The notes under the pieces are model-generated. The model searched no databases, was not told the DNA's origin, and saw nothing but the letters and a program-made list of their open reading frames with translations. This document shows, one piece after another, positions 12,625-19,499 of a DNA stretch of 64,000 nt (positions are counted from its first letter, which is position 1; every line of letters starts with the position of its first letter). The stretch is from Methanocella arvoryzae MRE50 (GTDB lineage: Archaea > Halobacteriota > Methanocellia > Methanocellales > Methanocellaceae). The stretch spans positions 2,976,001-3,040,000 of the forward strand of contig NC_009464.1 in assembly GCF_000063445.1 (NCBI RefSeq), given 5' to 3'. A program made the translations under genes and the position numbers.

Positions 12625-12819
12625 TTACTTCTGTTCGATGCTGCCTAATCTCTGATGAATCTCGCTAAGCTTCTGTTGGGAGCGGTCAACTTTTTCTTTC
12701 AGCTTATCGACCTCATCTTTCTCAAGGCTGACCTTGACGACGGTCAGAAAGATGAACGTCACCAGTAAGAACCATACGATTGCCACTAAAAACAGCACCA
12801 TTTCAATACTGATTTCCAT
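12625..12819 (-). CDS. Small membrane protein with coiled-coil tail
   Basis: A 64-residue protein with an N-terminal transmembrane helix (VLFLVAIVWFLLVTFIFLTVV, about residues 8-28) and a charged heptad-like tail (DEVDKLKEKVDRSQQKLSEIHQ). The ATG at 12819 follows AGGGGTG at a good distance; a TTG 18 bases further up is less likely. It resembles in layout the 64-residue protein at 61192. Its function is unknown; it may be a membrane anchor or assembly factor. Confidence 0.6.
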   Translation of the reverse strand: MEISIEMVLFLVAIVWFLLVTFIFLTVVKVSLEKDEVDKLKEKVDRSQQKLSEIHQRLGSIEQK

Positions 12820-12985
12820 GTTGACACCCCTATTCAATACGACTTTATCGCTTCTCTGTCATATGGTTTTTGCTTGGGCGCGCAGAGTAATTACAAATAT
12901 ATATGCTATTTCAGAGAAATGCCGTTATTTTCGGCATATTTATCGCTATAATCCGTTATAATCACTGGAAAAATTAAGGGTACTT

Positions 12986-13016
12986 CGATAATATATCTAT
13001 TTCTTAGTATATAATG
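12986..13016 (+). promoter_or_regulatory. TATA region of the Cys-rich micropeptide unit
   Basis: AT-rich elements ataatatatctat (12989-13000) and agtatataat (13006-13014) sit 35-60 bases before the 12-codon reading frame. Either could position transcription start between about 13018 and 13038. Confidence 0.5.
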
Positions 13017-13051
13017 ACCAGCTAATATTGCCAGAGATGGAGGTGAAATGG

Positions 13052-13090
13052 ATGTGCGACACCTGTGGCTGCGGCAAGAAACCTAAATAA
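13052..13090 (+). CDS. Twelve-residue Cys-rich micropeptide MCDTCGCGKKPK
   Basis: A tiny gene far below normal gene-calling limits. GGAGGTGA (13039-13046), an eight-base match to the complement of this genome's own 16S 3' end, sits five bases before the ATG. The peptide has Cys at positions 2, 5 and 7 and ends KKPK. MCxxCGCG is the N-terminal high-affinity nickel-binding motif of bacterial HypB hydrogenase maturation proteins, here standing alone. A TATA element lies upstream and a nine-base-pair hairpin 15 bases after the stop, so it looks like a complete transcription unit. A role as metal-carrying peptide is inference. GTG at 13043 would give 15 residues. Confidence 0.6.
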   Translation: MCDTCGCGKKPK

Positions 13091-13105
13091 TATCGATAGG
13101 GCAGC

Positions 13106-13154
13106 ATGGCCACCGTAAGTGGTGGCCATCCGGGGATAAAGAAAAATCTTTTTT
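13106..13154 (+). terminator. Terminator of the micropeptide unit
   Basis: ATGGCCACC (13106-13114) pairs perfectly with GGTGGCCAT (13121-13129) around a six-base loop, and a T-run follows at 13149-13154. It may also serve the convergent KH-domain gene ending at 13159. Confidence 0.65.

Positions 13155-18024: not shown

Positions 18025-19499
<1,475 letters not shown>

Follow-up and report, generated by a model that had tools for sequence, protein, structure and literature searches.

A 12-codon open reading frame (ORF) in the 64-kb window of DNA that we analysed is almost certainly a genuine protein gene. The window corresponds to positions 2976001-3040000 of a single-contig genome of 3,179,916 bp (G000:C1:2976001-3040000, G000 being the window's own genome), and the ORF lies at 13052-13090 on its forward strand. 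We lean towards the view that this gene encodes a free thiolate micropeptide acting as a buffer or carrier of a soft metal.

Conservation and surroundings of the 12-codon ORF

The ORF reads ATG TGC GAC ACC TGT GGC TGC GGC AAG AAA CCT AAA TAA, which specifies the peptide MCDTCGCGKKPK followed by a TAA stop. Four Methanocellaceae genomes from three genera (G000 and its relatives G001, G002, and G003) were compared. A pattern search detected MCxxCGCG frames in each of the four, and per genome exactly one of these frames specifies the identical peptide MCDTCGCGKKPK, with its stop at the same codon. Five nucleotide columns vary within the ORF (in codons 5, 7, 8, 11, and 12), all of which are third positions and all of which are synonymous, with the two-fold codons showing only transitions. 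Five random variable columns among the 36 sense bases would all hit the 11 third positions capable of synonymous change with P = 0.0012, a figure computed before the transition-only condition is counted. Among the four genomes, no alignable sequence was found beyond the ORF and its ribosome site, and the conserved element is therefore the codons themselves. This combination of synonymous-only variation, unalignable flanks, and a kept ribosome site argues strongly that the ORF codes for protein. According to a first-order Markov model of the window, ~0.2 MCxxCGC frames are expected per genome by chance, and 1e-4 when a GGAGGTG site is included, while by composition the whole peptide is expected ~2e-12 times per genome. 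An overlapping ATG in another frame at 13048 (MDVRHLWLRQET) was rejected because its spacing from the ribosome site is poor and the relatives do not retain it. Outside the Methanocellaceae, the KKPK form occurs in none of 394 Halobacteriota genomes, and a search of 148 genomes for MCxxCGC led by a ribosome site returned only two unrelated proteins of 51-58 aa. Judging by its conservation, the ORF is a vertically inherited gene, and we reject the notion of a chance ORF.

The ORF is equipped with several putative expression signals. Its Shine-Dalgarno site GGAGGTGA (13039-13046, forward strand), 5 nt before the ATG, is complementary to the 16S tail at 8/8 bases, being the reverse complement of ..TCACCTCC. 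The complementary 16S-tail sequence, GGCTGGATCACCTCCT, is present in three copies in the genome; the 3' end of one of the three 16S rRNA gene copies is found at 19484-19499 of the window. When both strands of the window are considered, GGAGGTGA occurs five times in total, and only the copy of the ORF lies 3-9 nt before an ATG. All four Methanocellaceae genomes have the same 8-mer, 5-7 nt upstream of the ATG. Further upstream, there is a TATA-like promoter element (agtatataat, 13007-13016, forward strand), which is a consensus match only, and a comparable A+T stretch precedes the ORF in two of the three relatives. On the 3' side of the stop, a 9-bp hairpin (ATGGCCACC-GTAAGT-GGTGGCCAT, 13106-13129, forward strand; fold z = -2.1) is followed by a T-run (13149-13154, forward strand) that is, from its sequence, probably an archaeal-type termination signal. 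Since this T-run starts 19 nt after the hairpin rather than abutting it, the two do not form a textbook intrinsic terminator, and a terminator scan listed no terminator for them. Hairpins of other sequence are present in G001 and G003, and none is evident in G002.

The ORF occupies an equivalent place in the four genomes, as established by neighborhood comparison with Pfam names. In each of them, it is downstream of, and co-directional with, a PAC2 gene and lies at the end of a cluster whose further products are L44e, eIF2-alpha, and a DNA primase small subunit (named by inspection). Convergent with the ORF are two genes for a PNO1-like KH protein and a RIO kinase. Because these downstream KH/RIO genes point the opposite way, there is no gene for a leader peptide to control; a regulated same-strand gene directly downstream is found in 0/4 genomes, and we rejected a leader peptide on these grounds. 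An RNA element was rejected as well, Rfam giving only a meaningless mir-263 match (E 0.44). It is therefore very improbable that the locus holds a conserved regulatory RNA, a leader, or a chance ORF instead of a protein gene. While an ORF length of merely 39 nt would suit such an explanation, the confinement of variation to synonymous positions between unalignable flanks argues against it, as do the arrangement of the downstream genes and the Rfam result. The preliminary description had presented the ORF as a stand-alone micro-gene with a TATA region, a perfect eight-base Shine-Dalgarno site, and a hairpin with a T-run, and had proposed to look in relatives for conserved codons with synonymous changes. 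This look gave a positive answer, with five synonymous columns in 4/4 genomes and shared synteny and ribosome site, and the TATA-like and Shine-Dalgarno elements are where they were claimed to be. As for the hairpin, it is real, but the T-run is not joined to it.

Elsewhere in the surroundings, a 70-aa frame on the reverse strand of the window (12625-12837) has a single hydrophobic segment at residues 8-28 and no Pfam match. Small membrane-protein frames, the starts of which resemble that of the 70-aa frame, also occupy this gap in G002 and G003.

Resemblance to HypB and candidate roles of the peptide

The N terminus of the peptide had been likened to that of HypB from the outset, and the comparison strengthens this observation, since the N-terminal MCxxCGC(G) motif is found in the four genomes. 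The likeness of MCDTCGCGKKPK to HypB is confined to its first eight residues. With 12 codons, the ORF does not encode the G3E-type GTPase domain of HypB, and the true HypB of the genome is encoded elsewhere (G000:995247-995888). When queried as a doubled 24-aa peptide, single copies being under the 20-aa limit, it scored 19.9 and 12.2 bits against the NCBIfam HypB_prefix models, below their cut-offs of 30 and 35, the best sub-threshold match being that of residues 1-10 to HypB_prefix_1. Because the models have a length of 64-72, a 12-aa peptide cannot pass these cut-offs. We also found the host HypB to be devoid of the motif, as had been predicted: there is no CxxCGC in the HypB of 4/4 genomes, and all four proteins begin ..HKI(E/Q)VNVG. 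No archaeal HypB fused to the motif was seen either. There is consequently no evidence of HypB fission, and a split HypB gene was rejected. The resemblance, which concerns a short low-complexity motif, may be of convergent origin.

Full-length Escherichia coli HypB binds Ni with a sub-picomolar Kd at a Ni(S)3NH2 site, the ligands of which are Cys2, Cys5, Cys7, and the N-terminal amine (PMC7055735). CTTCGCG and MCTTCGCGEG peptides have been reported to bind Cu (Ka ~1-2 x 10^6 per M) and neither Ni nor Zn (PMC6848105). These peptides were N-acetylated and measured at pH 5.5, and this study is not decisive because acetylation removes the amine ligand and pH 5.5 protonates the thiols. The metal-binding peptide of the N terminus is also the subject of two papers cited there (JACS 2008, 130:14056; Dalton Trans 2012, 41:7876).

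We propose the following scenario for the Methanocella peptide. The ORF would be a single-gene transcription unit, with its own short mRNA translated into the 12-residue peptide MCDTCGCGKKPK. The initiator Met, whose removal is expected before Cys, would be lost to give CDTCGCGKKPK, in which Cys2, Cys5, and Cys7 (Met counted), together with the N-terminal amine, would provide the S3N ligands that also make up the N-terminal site in E. coli HypB. Such a free cytosolic Cys3 ligand, probably assisted by the amine, may buffer or carry a soft metal ion, while the basic KKPK tail may keep the peptide near an acidic or nucleic-acid partner. Given a real peptide, metal binding is probable. Nickel would be the cargo of choice in a methanogen and is put forward tentatively as the physiological metal, zinc and copper(I) being the alternatives. 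Our literature search found no published description of such a peptide.

More specific roles can be weighed against this general one. It is possible, albeit unlikely, that the free peptide is a nickel donor in trans, which would give the high-affinity Ni site lacking in Methanocella HypB and would work with HypA/HypB or in Ni insertion into coenzyme F430, CODH/ACS, or hydrogenases. A motif identical to that of HypB, in hosts whose HypB is without it, is consistent with this role, and so is the presence in these genomes of two CbiM-type Ni/Co uptake genes and of a Prismane-family protein, whose family has CODH and HCP among its members. However, the locus sits beside PAC2/KH/RIO, away from hyp, nik, and mcr genes, and MCxxCGCGKK micro-ORFs occur in metagenome-assembled genomes (MAGs) in which no true HypB was found and in viruses. 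A trans-acting HypB partner is an attractive idea without positional or phylogenetic support.

We are doubtful that the peptide serves in thiol redox or as a sulfur or Fe-S ligand, with CxxC and CGC cycling between dithiol and disulfide or holding an iron-sulfur intermediate. Its three cysteines are closely spaced, and there is an analogy with other Cys-rich archaeal small proteins such as Methanosarcina mazei sORF_06, a small standalone protein that is translated, has four Cys, and was found to be disulfide-linked, and for which an Fe-S cofactor has been discussed (PMC11456600). Three Cys are few for a cluster, however, and MCxxCGC with Cys2, which is what a metal site needs, is present in every look-alike, although the search patterns demanded the motif. 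It is quite unlikely, in our opinion, that the peptide is a minimal basic binder of nucleic acids or the ribosome, with its N terminus ordered by a Cys3-bound zinc and its Lys tail making the contact. Such a function is suggested by the basic tails found with the motif in Methanocella, Omnitrophota, and viruses (KKPK, KKKPKK, KKHKKKK, and AAKKAAPKKK), as well as by the RNA-related KH PNO1-like and RIO genes that adjoin the locus. These neighbors are nevertheless convergent and on the opposite strand, the tail has just three lysines in this case, and a peptide of 12 aa is without structural precedent in this role.

Similar micro-ORFs in bacteria and viruses

We scanned ~85,000 species for the pattern MCxxCGCGKK with a stop close after it, which covers the KK form only. 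Apart from Methanocella, this revealed MC(K/Q)TCGCGKK (10 aa) in three Deltaproteobacteria MAGs, to which a fourth genome of the same class can be added, and MCG(S/T)CGCGKKKPKK (14 aa) in three Omnitrophota MAGs, the latter being found in 3/10 genomes of the order. The Omnitrophota micro-ORFs (L070:6384-6428, L073:663-707, and L074:4829-4873, all on the reverse strand) have a GAGGAG-type site and are always 125-150 nt upstream of a B12-dependent ribonucleotide reductase-like gene (identified by inspection). There is one further MCxxCGCGKK case, in Patescibacteria, without a clear ribosome site. Among the seven MAGs returned by the scan, whose completeness is not given, five have only weak GTPase matches for HypB, one has none, and one has a true HypB. 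Of 11 carriers tested, 9 have a CbiM-type Ni/Co uptake gene and 9 have a Prismane-family protein (CODH/HCP), so that neither test separates Ni users from non-users. The occurrence of MCxxCGCGKK micro-ORFs in MAGs without detected HypB and on viral contigs indicates that this design is not restricted to the maturation of [NiFe]-hydrogenases.

On viral contigs, MCKSCGCGKKHKKKK and MCKRCGCGKKH.. (15-16 aa) are encoded between two terminase genes, in the gap separating a small-terminase-like from a large terminase gene (L098:959-1006, L099:8002-8049, L100:1078-1128, L106:676-723, and L119:776-823), and exhibit synonymous changes between contigs. Some of these micro-ORFs have a TATATAAA-like stretch just upstream, and the terminase of these contigs is at most 26% identical to those of actinophages. 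Viral contigs also encode many proteins of 37-60 aa with the same MCxxCGC-type start and Lys/Ala/Pro-rich tails. One of these, a 37-38-aa protein that begins MC(T/A)(A/S)CGCGLKDKKDPG(Y/F)GKGPAKKK.., is abundant (L165-L227, e.g., L169 and L175) and has a Lys-rich protein and a 144-aa protein upstream in both contigs inspected. A search with two similar MCxxCGC viral proteins returned no PHROG family, and tblastn of phage and plasmid collections gave no match when short or lysine-rich queries were used, although BLAST is probably ill-suited to such queries.

Since homology over 10-15 residues is unprovable and the patterns demanded the motif, convergence is fully possible. We regard it as improbable that MCxxCGCG with a short basic tail defines an undescribed cross-domain class of metallopeptides, made of stand-alone genes of 10-16 codons in archaea, bacteria, and viruses, in which the vertically inherited Methanocella case would supply in trans the Ni site lacking in archaeal HypB.

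Significance and comparison with known small Cys proteins

A conserved, independently placed gene of 12 codons is near the lower size limit of functional protein genes and too short for ordinary gene finders, given their length limits. If it does bind metal, the peptide would rank as roughly the smallest metal-handling protein encoded by a gene and would offer a directly testable handle on how Ni-demanding methanogens hold nickel while lacking the site of bacterial HypB. As the design is also found in unrelated bacteria and viruses, an entire class of micro-genes may have been overlooked.

Methanocellaceae have other small proteins with this type of N terminus. MCISCGC(G/N) proteins of 52-55 aa are encoded in 4/4 genomes, one frame being 84 aa. 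This ~53-aa family, MCISCGC(G/N)xPxDxHxN..LIT.(D/E)(D/E)L..AAKAANM..., is represented in the window's genome by L003:1501-1662 (G000:C1:2609699, forward strand), with homologues in L002, L004, L006, L009, L010, and L032 and three copies in G001, and has no Pfam or NCBIfam match above cut-off. On the viral contigs L176, L184, L192, and L212, a similar N terminus begins proteins of 204-213 aa. A 28-29-aa protein, MCKSCGC(S/A)TKPK..KKAAPKKK, is encoded with a GGAGGTGA site in G001 and G002 (L013:1501-1587; L031, ATG at 1569, reverse strand), whereas the pattern that detected it gave no match in the window's genome. With several MCxxCGC proteins in Methanocella, this N-terminal module appears to have been reused several times in the lineage. 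These proteins share the N-terminal motif with the 12-mer, and the 28-29-aa pair also shares its GGAGGTGA site and Lys-rich tail; they are, however, longer and encoded at unlinked loci, and homology is undemonstrable at such length.

The 12-mer can also be compared with haloarchaeal CPxCG-type small zinc-finger proteins (e.g., Brz, PMC2253796), which are likewise tiny, Cys-rich, archaeal, and often missed by annotation. Yet these are several times longer and have zinc-finger CPxCG motifs, whereas the 12-mer is one three-Cys cluster. The closest parallel in design is the N-terminal site of bacterial HypB (CXXCGC; NCBIfam NF053667 HypB_prefix_1 and NF053668 HypB_prefix_2), with which the peptide shares MCxxCGCG at the extreme N terminus, Cys at 2, 5, and 7, and an available N-terminal amine. 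In contrast to bacterial HypB, the 12-residue peptide is free, has a basic KKPK tail in place of any His-rich stretch or GTPase domain, and is encoded at a locus unlinked to hyp genes.
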